Shown: positions 48,343-59,586 of the stretch, piece by piece
Layout: the number at the start of each line of letters is the position of its first letter
Position numbering within the stretch: position 1 is the first letter of the stretch
DNA from: Cytophagales bacterium Alg240-R148
Lineage (GTDB): Bacteria; Bacteroidota; Bacteroidia; Cytophagales; Cyclobacteriaceae
Length of the DNA stretch: 64,000 nt
Assembly (NCBI GenBank): GCA_900537185.1
Contig: LS999831.1
Coordinates: 310,001 to 374,000, forward strand
Direction of reading: 5' to 3'
Translations under genes and position numbers: made by a program
The notes under the pieces: model-generated
Seen by the model: only the letters and a program-made list of their open reading frames with translations
Database searches by the model: none
Told to the model about the DNA's origin: nothing

Positions 48343-50436
48343 ATGAATTCCGATTTACAAAATCCAATTGAATTTCTTAAAGGGGTTGGCCCTCAAAAAG
48401 GAGCCCTGCTAAATAAAGAAATTGCTGTTTTTACTTTCAGCGACCTGTTGCACCACTATCCTTTCCGGCATGAGGACAGAACAAAATTTTATACGATTTC
48501 TGAAATCAATCAATTTAATACATTTATTCAACTCAAAGGGAGTATTGTATCCAAAAAAGTAATTGGCGAAGGCCGAAAAAAGAGGCTTACTTGCATGCTC
48601 CAAGACAATACTGGCAAAATAGAGCTGGTCTGGTTCAAAGGTGTAGATTGGGTAGCAAAAAAAATCGCCATTGGGAAAATATATGTGGTTTTTGGAAGGC
48701 CCACCCTTTTTGGAAGCACTTACAACATCGCCCATCCAGAAATAGAACCAGTAAATACGAAAACTGCAGAAGGCCCTGCCTTGATGCCCGTTTATTCATT
48801 AACTGAAAAGTTAAAAAATAAGTTTTTGGACTCTAAAGCTATAACAAAGCTCAATTTAGCATTGCTCAAAAACTGCTACCAATACATCAACGACCCACTT
48901 CCAGTTTCGGTAATCAAAAACTATGGCCTCATTAGCAAAAGAGAAGCACTTAAATATTTGCATGCGCCCAGGTCTTTAGTTGAAATAGAAAAAGCCAAAT
49001 ACAGAATTAAATTTGAAGAATTCTTTTACATTCAACTTAAATTAATTCGGAGTAAGAAAATTCGCTTGGTTAAAAACAGTGGTGTCGCATTGACCAACAC
49101 AAGTTTGTTAACCACCTTCTATAATGAACACCTTCCTTTTGACCTTACCGGAGCGCAAAAACGGGTAACGAAAGAGATTTATAAAGACTTTAAAAGCGGG
49201 TTTCAAATGAATCGATTGTTGCAAGGGGATGTAGGAAGTGGAAAAACTATTGTAGCCTTTATTTCAATTTTAATTGCTGTCTCTTCTGGTTATCAAACTG
49301 CCTTGATGGCTCCAACGGAAATCCTAGCTACCCAGCATTTTCACGGGTTGGATGCGTTTGCCCAACGAATCGGAATAAAAATTGCCCTACTAACAGGCTC
49401 CACTAAAAAATCTGAAAGAAAAAAATTAGCTCAGGAACTCGAAAGCGGCTCCTTAAATTTATTAGTTGGTACCCATGCACTAATTGAAGACACCGTGGTA
49501 TTTAAGGCTTTAGGGCTGGCTATTGTAGACGAACAGCATAAATTTGGAGTTGCCCAACGAGCAAAATTATGGAAGAAAAACAAAAATTTCTACCCGCACA
49601 TTTTGGTAATGACTGCCACACCCATTCCTCGAACGTTGGCAATGAGTTTGTATGGAGATTTGGAAATATCCACCATTGATGAACTTCCAAAAGGTAGGAA
49701 ACCCATCATAACCATGCATAAATACGACTCCCATCGACTTAGAGTAAATGGACTTATAAAACAACAAGTAGAGGAGGGAAGGCAAATTTACATTGTTTAC
49801 CCACTCATAGAAGGATCTGAAAAATTGGACCTGAAAGACTTACACGATGGCTATGAAAGCATGAGACGCGCATTTCCGGAATACCACATTAGCATAGTGC
49901 ATGGTAAAATGAAACCTGCCGATAAAGAATTCGAAATGCAGCGTTTTGTAAAAGGCGAAACTCAAATTATGGTAGCCACTACAGTAATTGAAGTTGGCGT
50001 GAACGTACCAAATGCAAGTTTTATGGTGATTGAAAATGCTGAGAGATTTGGCTTGGCCCAATTGCACCAACTGCGCGGGCGTGTTGGCAGAGGGGCCGAC
50101 CAGTCGTATTGTGTTTTAATGAGCTCTTTCAAACTCAGCAAAGATGGCAAAATAAGATTAGAAACAATGGTCCGCTCAACGGATGGATTTGAAATTGCAG
50201 ATGTTGATTTAAAATTAAGAGGGCCTGGAGATGTATCGGGCACCCAACAAAGTGGGCTGGCAGGATTGAAAATGGCGGACATTACGCAAGATGGTGCTAT
50301 TTTGGAACAAGCAAGAGCTGCTGCCAAAGAACTATTAGAAAAAGACCCTCATTTAGCTGATCCAGAGCATAACAAACTGCTCAACTATTTACTCCAACAA
50401 AAAACGGGGCAATTAAAATGGGAGCAAATCAGCTAA
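48343..50436 (+). CDS. recG: ATP-dependent DNA helicase RecG
   Basis: 697 residues, the usual size. RecG reverses stalled replication forks and processes branched DNA. The N-terminal wedge/OB domain (FLKGVGPQKGALLNKEI and VWFKGVDWVAKKIAIGKIYVVFGRP) is present. The helicase core has Walker A GDVGSGKT (295-302), DEQH (396-399), LVMTATPIPRTLAMSLYGD and RLRGRVGRGADQSYC-type motif VI. Complete and intact. The stop overlaps the convergent histidine-kinase stop by 8 bp. Confidence 0.97.
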   Translation: MNSDLQNPIEFLKGVGPQKGALLNKEIAVFTFSDLLHHYPFRHEDRTKFYTISEINQFNTFIQLKGSIVSKKVIGEGRKKRLTCMLQDNTGKIELVWFKGVDWVAKKIAIGKIYVVFGRPTLFGSTYNIAHPEIEPVNTKTAEGPALMPVYSLTEKLKNKFLDSKAITKLNLALLKNCYQYINDPLPVSVIKNYGLISKREALKYLHAPRSLVEIEKAKYRIKFEEFFYIQLKLIRSKKIRLVKNSGVALTNTSLLTTFYNEHLPFDLTGAQKRVTKEIYKDFKSGFQMNRLLQGDVGSGKTIVAFISILIAVSSGYQTALMAPTEILATQHFHGLDAFAQRIGIKIALLTGSTKKSERKKLAQELESGSLNLLVGTHALIEDTVVFKALGLAIVDEQHKFGVAQRAKLWKKNKNFYPHILVMTATPIPRTLAMSLYGDLEISTIDELPKGRKPIITMHKYDSHRLRVNGLIKQQVEEGRQIYIVYPLIEGSEKLDLKDLHDGYESMRRAFPEYHISIVHGKMKPADKEFEMQRFVKGETQIMVATTVIEVGVNVPNASFMVIENAERFGLAQLHQLRGRVGRGADQSYCVLMSSFKLSKDGKIRLETMVRSTDGFEIADVDLKLRGPGDVSGTQQSGLAGLKMADITQDGAILEQARAAAKELLEKDPHLADPEHNKLLNYLLQQKTGQLKWEQIS

Positions 50437-51340
50437 CAACGGCTGAAAACACCAAAGGAATTTCCAAGAAAAAACTAGCCCCTTTTTCATTTTGTTCGTC
50501 TAAGAACAGCTGACCACCCAGTTTTTTTGCAAAAGCCTTGGACAATGCTAGGCCCAACCCGGTAGAATTTTCTCCATTGGTCGGTTGAGAGCTTAACACT
50601 TTAAATTTCTTGTAGAGCATAGGCCGATCAGAAGGAATGATTCCAGGGCCTTGGTCTCTGATGTTAACAACCAAAAAGTCGTCCTTTTCAAAAACGTCCA
50701 AAAATACTTTTTTATCAAACGGCGAAAATTTTATAGCATTGGATATAAGGTTTTCCAAAATTCTCTTAAAATATTGTTCGTCTGTTTTTACAATGGCACT
50801 CGGCACATTGATAGATTTGACCACTTCGATTCGCTTGGATTGCGCAACTCCAGAAAAAGAACTGTCAATTTCATTGATAACCGCCTCGATATTTACATCG
50901 TACAAATCTATGTGCCGTACGTTTTCATCCAATGCCCTGTAATCCAAAAGGTTTTTAATGAGATCCATCCCGTCCAGTACAACCTGGTTCATTTTTTCAA
51001 TATAATCCAGCTGTTCTTCCGTAAGGCTTTCGCTTTCCATTTTGATAAGGCTGGTCAGCGCATATATTCTATTGAGCGGTGATTTTAAATCGTGCGACAC
51101 CACACTAATTAGGTTGGTCTTCTCCTCGTTGAGGTCCTTTAAAAGTTTATTCTGGCCTTCTAATTTTAGGTTTTTTCTATGAATTAACCTGCTTTGTTTT
51201 TGAATCAAGAGGTTTTTTTGTTTCATTTCTTTATTGGCCCGCCATTTTTGCTCCAAACTCATAAAAATAATGAAACCGATTACCGCTAGCAAAGTGAGCA
51301 AGACAATGCCTGTATTTGAATCTAAAATAGCTGCCAACAT
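50429..51340 (-). CDS. Single-TM sensor histidine kinase
   Basis: 303 residues. A TM helix (about 11-27) is followed by a long charged linker with coiled-coil character (EMKQKNLLIQKQSRLIHRKNLKLEGQNKLLKDLNEEKTN). The HisKA His is His83 in VVSHDLKSPLNR. The HATPase domain has ENLISNAIKFSP, DQGPGI and TGLGLALSKAFAKKLGG. There is no N-terminal sensing domain of any size, so the TM/linker itself or a partner must sense. It is the last gene of a minus-strand set with a LEA-2 lipoprotein (12 bp) and an amidohydrolase; there is no response regulator nearby. Confidence 0.88.
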   Translation of the reverse strand: MLAAILDSNTGIVLLTLLAVIGFIIFMSLEQKWRANKEMKQKNLLIQKQSRLIHRKNLKLEGQNKLLKDLNEEKTNLISVVSHDLKSPLNRIYALTSLIKMESESLTEEQLDYIEKMNQVVLDGMDLIKNLLDYRALDENVRHIDLYDVNIEAVINEIDSSFSGVAQSKRIEVVKSINVPSAIVKTDEQYFKRILENLISNAIKFSPFDKKVFLDVFEKDDFLVVNIRDQGPGIIPSDRPMLYKKFKVLSSQPTNGENSTGLGLALSKAFAKKLGGQLFLDEQNEKGASFFLEIPLVFSAVVS

Positions 51341-53431: not shown

Positions 53432-53824
53432 ATGGAGATGGAGAAAATATTAGTAATAGACGACGACGAACCAATTAGCTTATTAATAGCAAAAATCCTT
53501 AAGAAGGAGTTTGACGTGAAGGTTTTTACTAACTGTTTTGAAGCATTTTCGGAAATGGAATCGGGGTACATTCCCGACCTTATCATTTCAGATATAAAAA
53601 TGCCTTCGTTTAACGGGTTGGAGTTTCTTGACAATCTTAAAAAAAGTGGAATTTACAGAGATATACCATTCATCATATTAACAGGATGGGATTCTCCAAC
53701 ACAAAAAAGATTGTGTCTTGACAAAGGCGCCGCAGACTACATCATCAAACCATTTAATCCTGAATCACTGTTGTTAAAAGTAAAAAACACCGTATACCAG
53801 GAAAAAATTAAATTAAAAAATTAA
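53432..53824 (+). CDS. Stand-alone response regulator receiver
   Basis: 130 residues, a single receiver domain with no output. All phosphorylation-site residues are present: acidic pair in ILVIDDDEP (Asp10, Asp11), phospho-accepting Asp54 in IISDIKMP, Thr84 in IILTGWD and Lys106 in DYIIKPF. So it should accept phosphate from a kinase and act through a partner, as CheY/Spo0F types do. It opens the glycan operon and is 11 bp ahead of a gene whose N-terminal receiver is degenerate. No kinase gene is adjacent. Confidence 0.92.
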   Translation: MEMEKILVIDDDEPISLLIAKILKKEFDVKVFTNCFEAFSEMESGYIPDLIISDIKMPSFNGLEFLDNLKKSGIYRDIPFIILTGWDSPTQKRLCLDKGAADYIIKPFNPESLLLKVKNTVYQEKIKLKN

Positions 53825-53835
53825 GTATTAGTTAG

Positions 53836-55017
53836 TTGGCCATGAGTACAGTTTTATTAGATTATCCGGAGCTACTAGATACGCCCAACAAGTCGATGGG
53901 CCTGTCTCGAAAAGCTGATGAGCAAGTGATTGCTCACGAAGAAAAAAGCATTTTATACATTGGATACAACGCAAAAGCGTTTTGTCAAGGAATGGTAACA
54001 TTGGGGTTTGGAGGCGTTTCGATGCCCACCTTCAAAAAAGCCATCACTTGGTTAAAAGACAGTGCATCCAAAGGCATGGATTTACCACATGCCATTATTT
54101 GTGATTATGCTTTGCCGTTTGACAATATCGAAGGGGGTATTGCTTTTTTAAGAAGCAACGATGCCACGAAAGAAATCCCCATCATTTTGATAACGTCTGA
54201 ATACAAAGACGAAGAAAAAGAAAAGGCAATTAGTTTGGGTGTCAACGATTATTACGACATCAACCTAGACACCAATGATTTAAAAGATAGAATTTCTCTT
54301 CTTCTTAGATTAAACTCTTGGAAAAAGACGAACCCTACTGCTAAAAAAGAGCCAGAATTAGACATTCCTGAATTGAAAATGTATTCCATGAAGCGTTTTC
54401 TGGATATTTCAGCTTCTTTTGTAGCGTTGTTGCTTTTAAGCCCATTGTTTTTATTAATTGCAATAATTTTAAAATTAGAATCCAAAGGCCCCGTTTTTTA
54501 CGTTTCAAAACGAGCGGGAAGCAACTACAAAATCATCAACTTTTACAAGTTTCGGTCTATGAGACAGGGAGCAGACAAAGAAGTTAACAAATTGTTGCAC
54601 CTCAATCAATATACAGATGGTATAGACGTAAAAGATGAAAAAGGGGGTAACCCTGCTTTTTTCAAAATTAAAAATGATCCTCGAGTAACTACTTTCGGAA
54701 AATTTTTAAGAAAGTCTAGTTTGGATGAATTGCCTCAGCTTATCAATGTCTTTTTAGGAGATATGTCGTTGGTGGGCAACAGGCCTTTGCCTTTGTACGA
54801 AGCTGAATTGCTTACCAAAGACCAATATGCTTTGAGATTTCTAGCTCCAGCGGGGATTACAGGCTTATGGCAAGTTACAAAAAGAGGTAGAGAAGAAATG
54901 TCGGAAGAAGAAAGAATGCAATTAGACATGGACTACGCCCGACACAATTCATTTTTATTCGATTTAAAAATTATTTTAAAAACAATTCCTGCTTTAATAC
55001 AAAAAGAGGAAGTCTAA
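53836..55017 (+). CDS. Pseudo-receiver fused to a phosphoglycosyl transferase
   Basis: 393 residues. Residues 37-155 have receiver shape and keep Asp88 (IICDYALP) and Thr118 (IILITSE), but the acidic pair is Gly41-Tyr42 (ILYIGYN) and the conserved Lys is Ile140 (DYYDIN), so phosphorylation in the usual way is unlikely. Residues 183-390 form a bacterial sugar transferase (PF02397-type) with a membrane hairpin (SASFVALLLLSPLFLLIAIIL), KFRSM, the catalytic Asp295-Glu296 in SLDELPQLINVF, and PAGITGLWQV. Such enzymes move a sugar-phosphate from UDP-sugar onto undecaprenyl phosphate, the priming step for surface glycans. A fusion of this kind with a receiver-like domain is uncommon. Confidence 0.93.
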   Translation: MAMSTVLLDYPELLDTPNKSMGLSRKADEQVIAHEEKSILYIGYNAKAFCQGMVTLGFGGVSMPTFKKAITWLKDSASKGMDLPHAIICDYALPFDNIEGGIAFLRSNDATKEIPIILITSEYKDEEKEKAISLGVNDYYDINLDTNDLKDRISLLLRLNSWKKTNPTAKKEPELDIPELKMYSMKRFLDISASFVALLLLSPLFLLIAIILKLESKGPVFYVSKRAGSNYKIINFYKFRSMRQGADKEVNKLLHLNQYTDGIDVKDEKGGNPAFFKIKNDPRVTTFGKFLRKSSLDELPQLINVFLGDMSLVGNRPLPLYEAELLTKDQYALRFLAPAGITGLWQVTKRGREEMSEEERMQLDMDYARHNSFLFDLKIILKTIPALIQKEEV

Positions 55018-55019
55018 AT

Positions 55020-56192
55020 ATGATACTTTTAGAATTGGTACTAATAGGATACTTTATTTATACAGTATCCTATTCTTTTTTTCTGGCCGTGGCGGCTCTG
55101 TTTTATAAAAACCCAAAAGCAATTCAAAAACCCAAATTCTTAAATTTTGCGGTTTTAATTCCAGCCTACAAAGAAGATGTAGTAATTCTTGAAGTAGCTG
55201 CTACTGCTGCAAGGTCCAACTATCCTAAAGATAAATTTTCTGTAGTAGTTGTGGCAGATTCTTTGCAACCCAACACTATTAGAACGTTGCGGGCAATACC
55301 GGTGGAAGTAGTAGAAGTTAATTTTGAACAAAGCACAAAAGTAAAATCGCTCAATACTGCCATGGCAGAAATTGGGGACAATTTCGATGCTGTTGCTATT
55401 TTAGATGCCGACAATTTAGTTGGTCCGGATTTCTTATTAGACATGACTGGTGTCATGGAACAAGGCTTCCATGCTGTCCAAGGGGAACGCCGCCCTAAAA
55501 ACAGCAATACAACACTGGCTTTCTTAGATGGTTTAAGCGAAGCCATCAACAACAACATTTTCCGACAAGGCACCACAGTTTTTAAGGGCGCTGCCTCTTT
55601 AAATGGTTCTGGCATGTGTTTCAACTACGCCCTGCTCAAGGGTATATTAAAAAATATGGAATCCGTAGGAGGGTTCGATCGGGAGTTAGAAATGATTTTA
55701 ATGGAACAAGGCGTAAAATCCATTTATCTTAAAAAAGCGTACGTATTGGATGAAAAGACTTCCAATTTAGGCAATTTCAAAAACCAACGAACCAGGTGGA
55801 TTTCAAGCCAGTTCTTTTACTTAAAAAAGTACTTTTCCAAAGGGATTCGCTATGGTTTAAAAGGCAACTTCGCCTACTTAAATAGTTCCATTTTAAGAAA
55901 CATTCAACTCCCTAGGTTGTTGAATTTGGGTTTCCTTACAATTTACACGCTTTTGAACGCAGTTTTTTACAACTTTTTTGAATGGAGTAATGTGGTACTG
56001 ATCCTATTTGCCATCAACACTTTCACCTTTATGATCAGCATTCCAAGAAAGTCGTACAACATGCAAATGTTGAAAGCCATACTCTACCTACCCAAGGTCT
56101 TTTTTCAAATGTTCTCTCTTTTGTTCAAGCTGAAGGGGGCCAACAAAAAGTTCATTCACACCGCTCATGGTCAGAGCGAAGTAAAAAAATAA
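55020..56192 (+). CDS. Membrane GT2-family glycosyltransferase
   Basis: 390 residues, starting 2 bp after the previous stop. An N-terminal TM (about 3-25) is followed by a GT2 core: FAVLIPAYKEDVVILEVAATAARSNYP, then VVVVADSLQPN, the D-x-D-type AILDADNLVGPDFL, and QxxRW as FKNQRTRWISSQF. The C-terminal end is membrane-embedded (LLNLGFLTIYTLLNAVFYNFF; NVVLILFAINTFTFMISI). This is the processive or cellulose-synthase-like branch of GT2, or a close relative. It would extend the lipid-linked glycan started by the phosphoglycosyl transferase. Confidence 0.87.
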   Translation: MILLELVLIGYFIYTVSYSFFLAVAALFYKNPKAIQKPKFLNFAVLIPAYKEDVVILEVAATAARSNYPKDKFSVVVVADSLQPNTIRTLRAIPVEVVEVNFEQSTKVKSLNTAMAEIGDNFDAVAILDADNLVGPDFLLDMTGVMEQGFHAVQGERRPKNSNTTLAFLDGLSEAINNNIFRQGTTVFKGAASLNGSGMCFNYALLKGILKNMESVGGFDRELEMILMEQGVKSIYLKKAYVLDEKTSNLGNFKNQRTRWISSQFFYLKKYFSKGIRYGLKGNFAYLNSSILRNIQLPRLLNLGFLTIYTLLNAVFYNFFEWSNVVLILFAINTFTFMISIPRKSYNMQMLKAILYLPKVFFQMFSLLFKLKGANKKFIHTAHGQSEVKK

Positions 56193-56204: not shown

Positions 56205-57101
56205 ATGCAGGAAGAACCGTTAATTTCTATTGTTTCCATCAACTACAATACACTAAAAGACACTTTAGAATTGTTGGAATCTTTAGAGCAATGCAATTAT
56301 AAAAATCTTGAGATTTTTATAATTGACAATGCTTCTAGAGAAAATCCTGACAAAATAATACAGGAGCGATACCCCAACATTAAATTTATTAGAAGTGATA
56401 AAAACTTAGGTTTCGCCGGAGGTAACAACCTAGGTATTGTCAAGGCTACGGGAGACTTTGTGTTTCTTTTGAACAGCGACACCATCGTGAAGGCAGATTT
56501 CTTTCACGTTATGGTAGATTTTATGTTGGATCGGCCAGAAATAGGAATAGCATCTCCAAAAGTATTGTATGCTGAAAACAACATCATCCAATATGCCGGG
56601 GCAAAAAAAATAAACTTGTTAACCGGAAGAGGCAAACGGTTGGGTTTGTATGAAAGCAATGAAAACAACCCATACAATGAATGTTTTGAAACTGATTTGG
56701 GCCATGGCGCGGCTTTAATGTTAAGAAAAGAAGCCATTGAAAAAGTCGGCCTAATGCCGGAAATCTATTTTCTTTATTATGAAGAACACGATTGGACAGA
56801 GCAAATAAAAAAAGCCGGGTACAAAATGTATTACATTGGAACTACCGACATCATTCATAAGGAGTCTATTTCTATTGGAAAAGATAGCCCACTTAAAGTC
56901 TATTATTTAACTAGAAATAGACTGATTTTCCTGAGGAGAAACAGTTCGGGCTTCCAATTTATATCTGCATGCCTTTTCTTTGCGGTTTTTACTTTTCCAA
57001 AAAATACATTAAAATACCTTTTCAAAGGTGAATTTGTACTATTGAAAAATTTCTTAAAAGGTGTTTTTTGGAATTTTAAAAATAAACTAAGCCATGGGTG
57101 A
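56205..57101 (+). CDS. GT2-family glycosyltransferase (rhamnosyl-type)
   Basis: 298 residues, soluble with a possible hydrophobic end. The start [23 protein letters not shown] and [15 protein letters not shown] lead to [29 protein letters not shown], the family's N-x-G-F-x-x-x-N-N-x-G and D-x-D-type blocks. A late segment, [21 protein letters not shown], is typical of WbbL-like rhamnosyltransferases (F-x-Y-x-E-D-x-D pattern with one change). It follows the membrane GT2 gene by 12 bp and overlaps the next gene by 8 bp, so the genes are coupled. Confidence 0.9.
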
Positions 57102-57687
57102 GATAAAACAGAAATTTCAAAAATTTAAACAGGAATATCCGGAAAAATCATTTTTTGGAATCCTACTTGCATTAATAGTACGTGTAAGCAGGGTATTCTT
57201 AGCCAAGTGGTACCTCAGAAGTTGTACCAAATTAGGACGCTACGTCTCAATTTACGGCAAACCTAGAGTAGAAAATTTAGGCACCATGGTGCTGAACGAC
57301 GAAGTAAGGGTTTGGTCCAAAATCATTCAGGCTAAATTGTATACTGGAAAAAATGGTGTCATGAACATCGGTAAAAACTCAAGAGTGAACGGTGCGCATA
57401 TCGACGCACAACACAGCATAACCATTGGAGAGAATGTTAGAATTGCTCCTTATACACTTATTTTAGACAGTGATTTTCATGATGTGAACAATCACTTTTC
57501 TGACGGGGTATCCAAACCAATAGTTATAGAAGACGACGTATGGTTGGCAACCAGATGTACCGTATTAAAAGGTGTTACTATTGGAAAAGGAGCTGTTGTT
57601 GCTACCGGCGCTTTGGTAACCAAAGATGTTCCTGCTTACAGCATAGTAGCAGGAGTTCCGGCAAAAGTAATAAAAACATTAAAATAA
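57094..57687 (+). CDS. Left-handed beta-helix acyltransferase
   Basis: 197 residues. An N-terminal helical part ([31 protein letters not shown]) may sit on the membrane. Hexapeptide repeats follow from about residue 65, with the catalytic-type His in [12 protein letters not shown] and the run [48 protein letters not shown]. This is the WbbJ/LacA-type O-acetyltransferase, which adds an acetyl (or other acyl) group to a sugar. It sits between the second GT2 gene and the AsnB-type gene. Confidence 0.88.
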
Positions 57688-57693
57688 AGTAAC

Positions 57694-59586
57694 ATGTGTG
57701 GATTAACAGGTTTCGTAGATTTCAACAAACAGTCTGACAAGGAAACAGTTTCTAAGATGACATCCGTTTTGCATCACAGAGGGCCAGACGATGCCGGATT
57801 GGATTTTTTCGACCAGGACTCCTACAGCATTGGGCTTGGCCACAAACGATTGTCCATTTTGGACCTTAGTGCCTTAGGCCACCAACCCTACCATTATGAG
57901 CACTTATCCATGGTATACAATGGTGAGATTTATAATTTCAAGGAAGTACGAGCAGAATTAGAAAAATTGGGTGAAACATTTGTTTCCGATTCTGACACAG
58001 AGGTAATAATCAAAAGTTTTGCACGCAAAGGACTGAGTTGTGTAGAAGACTTTATTGGAATGTTCGCCATCTCTATCTGGGACAAAAAAGAGGATAAAAT
58101 CTACCTCATTAGAGACCGAGCAGGTGTAAAACCATTGTATTATTACTGGAAAGACAACTTGTTGCTCTTTTCTTCTGAACTAAAAAGCTTCCACGAACAC
58201 CCGAATTTCCAAAAAGAATCGGACCAAGATTCCGTCTCGCTTTACTTGCAGTACAGCTACATTCCAGCACCTTATACAATTTTCAAAAATTGCTGGAAAT
58301 TAAAGCCTGGACACACACTTGTAGTGGACCTCAAAAACAAAGACATTAAAGAATTAAAATATTGGGATGTCAATGATTTTTATAACAAAGAAAAGTTAAA
58401 CATTTCTGAAGGCGAAGCCATTGAAGAACTGGAAAGCATTATGAAATCTGCATTTGATTACCGAATGGTTTCAGATGTACCGGTAGGGGTGTTTTTGAGT
58501 GGTGGTTATGATAGTTCTGCAGTTGCTGCCTTGTTACAAAAAGACAGAACGGACCAGATCCATACTTTTACAATTGGGTTTCAAGAAGATGACTTCAATG
58601 AGGCGCCTTACGCTAAAAAAGTGGCTGATTACTTGGGCACTAAGCACACCGAATATTACTGTACCCCTCAGGAAGCAGTAGATATCATTCCGAAACTGCC
58701 AGATATATACGACGAACCTTTTGGGGACAATTCTGTAATTCCAACCGTTTTGGTTAGTGAATTGGCGCGCAAACATGTGACAGTTGCTCTTTCAGCAGAT
58801 GGGGGGGATGAAATTTTTGCTGGCTATCCAAAATTCCATATGGCTCAGAAGTATACCCAAAAACTTCCAGCTTGGTCTCAATACTTATTGAGCAGAGGAA
58901 TGGACCTTGTTAACCCAAAACGATTGGGCATTGGCAACGGTATGTATAACTTTAACACCCGGTATGATAAAATAAAAAATATTTGGAAGAACGGAACTGC
59001 AACAGAAGCTATGAAGATTATTTCTCAGTTTCATACAGATTCCGAAATGAAATCTTTAATTGAATATGATTTCAACCCTAAAAAAACGTACTTTGATGGG
59101 GCGCCTGAGCTTATGGACCACAACGACGACCTCAATAAGATGTTGGCCATCGATTACAAAACCTTTCTTTTGGATAACAACTTGACAAAAGTTGACCGAG
59201 CAACCATGTCGGTAAGTTTGGAAGGAAGAGAACCGCTATTGGACCATAGAATCATTGAGTATGTAAGCCAATTGCCATCCAACCTGAAAACAAAGGACGG
59301 TGTAGACAAATATATTCTGAAAACCATCGTCCACAAACACCTTCCAACCGAATTAATGGAAAGAAAAAAAATGGGGTTTGTTGTACCAATTATGCGGTGG
59401 TTCAAAGACGATTTAAAGGACCTATTCATAGATTACCTCAATGAAGATACCATCAAAAAAAATGGTATATTTAACGCAAAGCGCGTGTTAGAAATGCGCG
59501 ATAGTTTCTTGAATGGCAAGGGAGAAAATGTTCAAAAACTATGGCATTTGCTCTTATTCCAGATGTGGAAAGAAAAGTGGGACTAA
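57694..59586 (+). CDS. asnB: Asparagine-synthase-type amidotransferase
   Basis: 630 residues, the usual AsnB length. The N-terminal glutaminase domain opens with the nucleophile Cys2 (MCGLTGF) and has HHRGPDDAG and YNGEIYNF. The synthetase domain carries the PP-loop LSGGYDSSAVAALL and the late ALSADGGDEIFAGYPKF. Within glycan operons such enzymes often amidate a sugar carboxyl group (WbpS-like) rather than make free asparagine; which applies here is not readable. It is 6 bp from the acyltransferase gene. Confidence 0.9.
   Translation: MCGLTGFVDFNKQSDKETVSKMTSVLHHRGPDDAGLDFFDQDSYSIGLGHKRLSILDLSALGHQPYHYEHLSMVYNGEIYNFKEVRAELEKLGETFVSDSDTEVIIKSFARKGLSCVEDFIGMFAISIWDKKEDKIYLIRDRAGVKPLYYYWKDNLLLFSSELKSFHEHPNFQKESDQDSVSLYLQYSYIPAPYTIFKNCWKLKPGHTLVVDLKNKDIKELKYWDVNDFYNKEKLNISEGEAIEELESIMKSAFDYRMVSDVPVGVFLSGGYDSSAVAALLQKDRTDQIHTFTIGFQEDDFNEAPYAKKVADYLGTKHTEYYCTPQEAVDIIPKLPDIYDEPFGDNSVIPTVLVSELARKHVTVALSADGGDEIFAGYPKFHMAQKYTQKLPAWSQYLLSRGMDLVNPKRLGIGNGMYNFNTRYDKIKNIWKNGTATEAMKIISQFHTDSEMKSLIEYDFNPKKTYFDGAPELMDHNDDLNKMLAIDYKTFLLDNNLTKVDRATMSVSLEGREPLLDHRIIEYVSQLPSNLKTKDGVDKYILKTIVHKHLPTELMERKKMGFVVPIMRWFKDDLKDLFIDYLNEDTIKKNGIFNAKRVLEMRDSFLNGKGENVQKLWHLLLFQMWKEKWD

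Follow-up and report, generated by a model that had tools for sequence, protein, structure and literature searches.

How does a phosphorylatable receiver protein that has no output domain act, when its gene lies directly upstream of an enzyme that starts polysaccharide synthesis? The question is raised by two adjacent genes in a 64,000-nucleotide stretch of DNA from a Cytophagales bacterium (hereafter the window), the first encoding an intact stand-alone receiver and the second a receiver-like domain fused to a priming phosphoglycosyl transferase. An earlier note, made from the sequence, had suggested that the intact receiver, when phosphorylated, binds or displaces the degenerate one and so controls the priming step post-translationally. 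The pair is made up of the following features:

53432..53824, plus strand: stand-alone single-domain receiver (REC), 130 aa (Pfam PF00072, active-site residues)
53842..55017, plus strand: small monotopic phosphoglycosyl transferase (PGT) with an N-terminal pseudo-receiver, 391 aa (PF02397, AlphaFold2)
53842..53940, plus strand: PGT residues 1-33, the N-terminal tail (AlphaFold2 pLDDT <50 at residues 1-30)
53941..54330, plus strand: PGT residues 34-163, the pseudo-receiver, a complete (beta-alpha)5 domain in the predicted model
53962-53967, plus strand: G41-Y42, at the site of the acidic pair
54103-54105, plus strand: D88 of the pseudo-receiver
54193-54195, plus strand: T118 of the pseudo-receiver
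54259-54261, plus strand: I140, at the site of the Lys
54391..54999, plus strand: PGT residues 184-386, the catalytic domain (Pfam, invariant columns, likeness to PglC)
54724-54729, plus strand: D295-E296, the catalytic dyad

The REC matches Pfam Response_reg (PF00072) at 79.8 bits, above the cut-off of 30.2, and its active site is complete (D10, D11, D54, T84 and K106), so that both coordinates and residues agree with the intact receiver described in the earlier note. Position 41 is Glu, where most of the RECs partnered with related PGTs have Trp. When the window's genome was searched with a profile of such partner RECs, of whose nine rows the window REC is itself one, the window REC ranked first at 186.8 bits, and the runner-up reached 103 bits.

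We placed the start of the PGT at the ATG at 53842, 17 bp past the REC stop; the open reading frame list starts it at TTG 53836, and the ATG matches the residue numbering of the earlier note. Residues 184-386 match Bac_transf (PF02397) at 203.7 bits (cut-off 27), and D188 and P201 of the re-entrant-helix motif (D188-X12-P201), as well as D295 and E296, are invariant across 71 aligned PGT rows. By profile, D-X12-P motif and Asp-Glu dyad, the window enzyme is a small monotopic PGT with predicted transferase activity, and the fusion to a priming enzyme carrying Asp295-Glu296 is as had been claimed. In an AlphaFold2 model of the PGT built from 71 sequences (mean pLDDT 84, pTM 0.65), residues 35-163 form the complete set of five beta-alpha units that make up the receiver fold, with strand 1 ending just before G41, strand 3 at D88, strand 4 at T118 and strand 5 just before I140; the tail of residues 1-33, of low model confidence, is probably disordered. 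VIA-align superposes residues ~34-160 of the model on receivers of known structure, the best rows reaching Z 17.6 at an rmsd of 1.8 A over 118 residues, and the same domain scores 22.5 bits against PF00072, below the cut-off of 30.2. The degenerate receiver of the earlier note, with G41-Y42, D88, T118 and I140, is thus recovered with a predicted receiver fold. Its authoring reader had added that acidic or Lys residues supplied from neighbouring positions would speak against a dead domain. We found no acidic residue after strand 1 (GYNAK) and no Lys within residues 138-144 of the fused domain; nearby residues therefore do not replace the missing ones, and the window pseudo-receiver holds a dead site that cannot be phosphorylated in the usual way.

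To place the pair among its relatives, named genomes were searched with a PGT alignment and the catalytic-domain patterns GDMS[LI]VGN and PLPLYEAE, and the best 80 of 585 confirmed candidates were used. These loci were chosen by PGT alone. In 77 of the 80 (best 80 of 585) the PGT is preceded on its own strand by a single-domain REC, at a spacing of -47 to +100 bp in 76 loci and of 637 bp in L040. As labelled, they come from Cytophagales, Chitinophagaceae, Sphingobacteriaceae, Saprospiraceae, a Flavobacteriales and a Bacteroidales MAG, and one KSB1 MAG. The control was drawn from PGTs of 70 genomes of the phylum, its 70 loci being the 30 best scorers among the matches listed and 40 hand-picked by frame size. 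These loci hold 72 PGT frames, three of which are of the paired type (L164, L166 and L167) and all three have a REC; no REC lies beside the other 69 in the fetched 2-6 kb. After leaving out L165 (a low-complexity N-terminus by eye), L168 (a contig-cut large type) and the second PGTs of L147 and L159, none of which has a REC in the fetched DNA, a REC was found beside 0 of 65 PGTs outside the family. We use 77/80 and not the family-wide 99/103, because several in-family loci entered via REC-like matches or a visible pair (L020, L023, L024, L030, L032, L201, L205, L208 and L215-L217). The earlier note had asked whether the fusion travels with a stand-alone receiver, and these two counts, 77/80 (best 80 of 585) inside the family and 0/65 outside it, answer that it does.

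The pairing also follows descent. In a FastTree phylogeny of catalytic domains (168 rows, thinned of 21 near copies to 147), all paired PGTs fall in one clade (85 rows, 100*) and none of the 62 rows outside it is paired; IQ-TREE recovered the same clade from 65 chosen rows (100*). The window's genome itself has three PGTs, with a REC neighbour at the window PGT only. Receivers are common, with 24 matches at E 1e-15 in that genome, and we found no other support for the idea that the two genes are chance neighbours or an annotation artefact; the contrast between 77/80 (best 80 of 585) and 0/65, in a single clade and across many genera, refutes it, and we give it practically no credence. The pair is confirmed as general in many Bacteroidota and is no one-genome oddity, and a REC-PGT partnership is strongly indicated by the genomics.

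The survey yielded further observations. A contig labelled Beijerinckiaceae (L052) carries the pair, and its PGT groups with a Chitinophaga one; it is probably a mis-binned MAG contig. One control genome has two small PGT genes directly in tandem (L159:2030-3204). Between the positions of window Y257 and F273, 14 of 90 family PGTs (L020, L023, L024, L030, L032, L038, L043, L071, L086, L088, L102, L106, L107 and L112) have a segment of 50-56 residues with at least four cysteines and a shared CxxC...C...C pattern; this segment, which the window PGT does not have, lies inside the catalytic domain and is probably metal-binding.

Exceptions to the pairing are of two kinds. Four family members have no adjacent REC (L005, L047, L065 and L100). 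The genomes of the first three encode an unlinked stand-alone REC of the partner type, at 145.9, 135.6 and 119.4 bits (next best 91, 105 and 85), and the unlinked RECs in the L047 and L065 genomes do not overlap those loci; in Hufsiella the unlinked partner-type REC heads an OEP/Wzz-like (outer-membrane-export) cluster. L100 starts 205 bp from a contig end, and the partner-REC profile found no clear partner REC in its genome (best 93.8 bits). Five other family PGTs (L032, L086, L201, L205 and L218) lack any N-terminal domain and keep the adjacent REC, so what is invariant is the REC with this PGT clade, and the pseudo-receiver is usual, not essential. These five favour a reading in which the REC controls the PGT via its catalytic domain, or via a PGT dimer, the pseudo-receiver being an independent module for structure or dimerisation. 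We consider this possible but doubtful; an N-terminal domain of fitting length is present in 98 of 103 family rows, the label pseudo-receiver standing across the family for an N-terminal length of 130-235 residues and not for a fold.

The active site of the REC is complete in 75 of 86 partner RECs. The remaining 11 have lost part of it and are still paired with a PGT: five from Pedobacter carry D54S and D11G (L050, L051, L060, L075 and L103), five carry D10T (Flavihumibacter L048, L083, L085 and L110, and L089, labelled Flavipsychrobacter), and the last is L057. A phospho-switch therefore cannot be universal, and by their residues the degenerate-REC pairs would hardly work as an ordinary one. 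That such RECs stay paired is what one would expect if the REC were a constitutive structural subunit of the PGT, for which phosphorylation matters little. We hold this to be unlikely for the family, given the complete site in 75/86 and the kinase genes directly upstream in L079, L218 and L201. At L079 (KSB1) the genes for a HisKA/HATPase kinase and the REC overlap, and the PGT comes next; at L218 a HisKA-HATPase-REC-Hpt hybrid kinase directly precedes the REC and then the PGT; and L201, which has the same genus code as L218, shows the same kinase-REC-PGT order with the kinase cut by the locus end. A histidine kinase thus lies directly before REC-PGT in two lineages. Among the 90 scanned loci, the fetched DNA holds a kinase gene at nine (ten ORFs; two different searches agree), and the kinase is inside the operon only in L079. 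The nearest kinase that we considered in the window, a HisKA protein encoded at 50429-51340 (minus strand), lies outside the REC-PGT operon; it was set aside as the cognate kinase for its position alone, on the opposite strand and past two intervening genes.

The fused domains have gone further. None of 88 retains the full phosphorylation set: both acidic residues are kept in 0 and the Lys in 2, the phosphoacceptor position is Asp in 24 and Glu in 45, and the Ser/Thr is present in 34. Some relatives score above the PF00072 cut-off (L215 57.7, L079 50.1, L208 32.1 and L216 31.8 bits), and by eye the domains of L215 and L216, which are from other classes, are less worn, with one acidic residue and the Lys kept and Glu for Asp. 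Eight chosen pseudo-receivers form one group (97*), which fits a single fusion followed by decay, a history with which these sequences are consistent. As to an origin from the domain's own partner REC, the partner profile scores higher than background in 6/8 by 1 to 11 bits and lower in 2/8.

Does the REC touch the PGT, and where? Relative to 66 other RECs, the partner RECs are enriched in W41 (about 80%), G45-N46, S72-G73, an aromatic at 75 and P110; the background includes at least two probable partner-type RECs (L213 and L214), so the contrast is conservative. Positions 41-46 and 72-75 we take to be the alpha2-beta3 and alpha3-beta4 turns. Receivers usually use their alpha4-beta5-alpha5 face, and the location of these positions off that face counts in favour of control via the catalytic domain. 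So does the published EpsW/EpsZ model, where the REC is in contact with the catalytic domain as well as with the DUF (PMC12802240). On the pseudo-receiver side, the best-conserved positions are L154, D136, F153, R150, P82, G41 and K158 (the window has L153 and N158); most belong to strand 5/helix 5, and G41 is the former acidic-pair site.

Rates of change bear on the same question. Divergence of the REC and the pseudo-receiver is correlated after control for each of six neighbour genes, with a partial r of 0.72-0.89 in an exploratory set of 12-24 sister pairs that were picked greedily by small distance. The partial r between REC and catalytic domain is also high (0.54-0.85), as contact with the catalytic domain would have it, but that between REC and pseudo-receiver is at least equal to it with all six control genes, which argues against the catalytic domain as the route. 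The partials of the REC against the control genes themselves run from -0.25 to 0.83, Wzy being highest. Column covariation between REC and pseudo-receiver is weakly above that of sister-swapped pairings (1/60 swaps as high); for REC and catalytic domain, 7/60 swaps were as high. We also folded REC and PGT in line, reading L043 through its intergenic stop (28 sequences, no inter-domain error; pTM 0.65); an earlier 81-row in-line alignment had been dropped, as PGT-only rows put the pseudo-receiver onto the REC. REC and pseudo-receiver are each confident in this fold and the catalytic part is poor, probably because of the shallow alignment. Against PleD 2wb4_B, 229 residues aligned at an rmsd of 15.1 A, with no PleD-like geometry.

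Taken against these results, the post-translational control proposed in the earlier note stands in part. It is favoured by a predicted receiver fold that is dead across the family (0/88) and by the pairing itself (77/80 of the best 80 of 585, vs 0/65). Five PGTs without the domain keep their REC, which speaks against the pseudo-receiver as sole target, and the REC may act on the catalytic part too; nor can there be a universal phospho-switch, since 11/86 RECs are degenerate.

The genes that follow the pair indicate which pathway would be controlled:

55020..56192, plus strand: membrane GT2 glycosyltransferase, 2 bp past the PGT
56205..59586, plus strand: remainder of the apparent operon, with a GT2 (rhamnosyltransferase-like), a hexapeptide acetyltransferase and an asparagine-synthase-like amidotransferase

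In 49 of the 80 named loci (best 80 of 585) a relative of the window GT2 is encoded downstream of the PGT, and in 20 it is the immediate neighbour. The genes at these loci include GT2 in 51, OEP in 33, Wzz/tyrosine-kinase-like in 32 and Wzy in 28, among others, and the pair is often upstream of them. About 33-41 kb downstream of the pair, on the opposite strand, the window's genome carries Wzz-like, Wzx, GT, Wzy and OEP genes; this distal cluster (L232:3889-12100), which holds an ATP-grasp gene too, may make up the remainder of the pathway, separated from the REC-PGT operon. From the gene content at the named loci and of the distal cluster, the product of the window pathway is likely a Wzx/Wzy-type polysaccharide. 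The amidotransferase of the apparent operon (57694-59586) has as its top NCBIfam match the XrtA/PEP-CTERM-associated TIGR03108, at 557.7 bits, below the cut-off of 816.9, and passes the cut-off of the general asn_synth_AEB model.

Some pseudo-receivers bind ligands. The pseudo-receiver might accordingly be a ligand or nucleotide sensor of the enzyme, with the REC merely co-transcribed and acting elsewhere in the polysaccharide pathway, and a precedent would be WbaP, an enzyme that UMP inhibits, perhaps by way of the DUF (PMC10942596). This reading appears quite improbable to us: the REC stays beside the PGT while downstream genes vary between loci, one PGT clade has the REC and 65 other PGTs do not, and partner-type RECs persist unlinked in 3/4 of the unpaired genomes.

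The best explanation, and one that we judge fairly probable, is that the REC is a dedicated signalling subunit of the neighbouring PGT, with the pseudo-receiver as its docking or dimerisation partner; the signal protein would probably control the enzyme directly, and not via its gene. A histidine kinase, usually encoded elsewhere, would phosphorylate the stand-alone REC, which has no output domain and would work by protein contact on the adjacent PGT. It would thereby set whether the first sugar-phosphate goes onto undecaprenyl phosphate for a Wzx/Wzy-type exopolysaccharide, and the dead pseudo-receiver would most likely serve as the docking or dimerisation partner that gives the REC access to the enzyme, in a mode resembling that of EpsW on EpsZ in Myxococcus. 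Phosphorylation, physical contact, the surface used for docking and whether the control is positive or negative are what we infer, activation being favoured. A fuller account, which we offer tentatively as a plausible one, is that, across Bacteroidota, a single fusion joined a receiver to a priming PGT, after which the receiver ceased to be phosphorylated and turned into a lasting dock for a separate, co-evolving REC; the resulting two-protein phospho-switch would gate the first exopolysaccharide step and leave transcription alone, and in Pedobacter and Flavihumibacter, where both receivers are degenerate, it would have become a locked structural complex.

Bacteria have to time the commitment of scarce undecaprenyl phosphate to surface polysaccharide, and a 2025 study of one myxobacterium reported that a receiver protein directly stimulates a priming PGT (PMC12802240). 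The Bacteroidota family, a widespread one, offers a partner gene next door, fused receivers at successive stages of decay up to full degeneracy, members that have naturally lost the fused domain, and gene arrangements that point to a likely kinase. The mechanism is therefore testable by simple deletions and soluble-domain binding assays.

Among known systems, PleD (REC, REC-like adaptor, GGDEF) has an active and a degenerate receiver that control an enzyme, all in one chain. Taken by itself, the window pseudo-receiver aligns to PleD at Z 17.3 (rmsd 4.7 A, 132 residues); unlike in PleD, the active receiver here is a separate protein. The catalytic part resembles PglC (PDB 8e37, 8g1n), which VIA-align matches to window PGT residues 179-388 at Z 22.2 (rmsd 2.8 A, 181 residues, 36% identity) and which shares the D-X12-P motif and DE dyad. 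The PglC structures, with chains of 185-193 residues, however, comprise the catalytic domain only, without a receiver-like domain. When the pseudo-receiver was compared with the WbaP DUF, Foldseek aligned the window PGT to WbaP over 372 columns at an rmsd of 19.1 A, and VIA-align aligned residues 176-387 only.

In the open-licence PubMed Central literature we found no description of the Bacteroidota pair of REC and pseudo-receiver-PGT. Receiver domains are stated to occur fused to small PGTs (PMC12802240, citing O'Toole et al. 2021), which is the fusion type of the window; that passage on PGT-receiver fusions, however, makes no mention of inactive receivers, a stand-alone partner or Bacteroidota. 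The closest functional parallel is in Myxococcus xanthus, where Schwabe et al. 2025 (mBio, PMC12802240) report that EpsW~P is near EpsZ in vivo by proximity labelling and that EpsW stimulates EpsZ activity in a heterologous host, the EpsW/EpsZ complex being a computational model. Both systems join an output-less single-domain REC to the monotopic PGT that initiates exopolysaccharide synthesis, by a Wzx/Wzy pathway in Myxococcus and probably here too, the pairing here being known from genes alone. EpsZ, however, belongs to the large PGTs and has both a transmembrane bundle and a DUF, whereas the window PGT is small, has a dead receiver and gives no Pfam match to the PF13727 DUF at E 0.001; against the EpsZ model NF041877 it scores 166.8 bits (cut-off 800), with the catalytic part only aligned. 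Small monotopic PGTs are said to act as monomers (PMC12802240), and the mechanism put forward for EpsZ, which involves a dimer, may therefore not apply to PGTs of the window type. Judged by sequence, the Bacteroidota pair is not a member of the EpsW/EpsZ family, but by analogy it probably works like EpsW and EpsZ.
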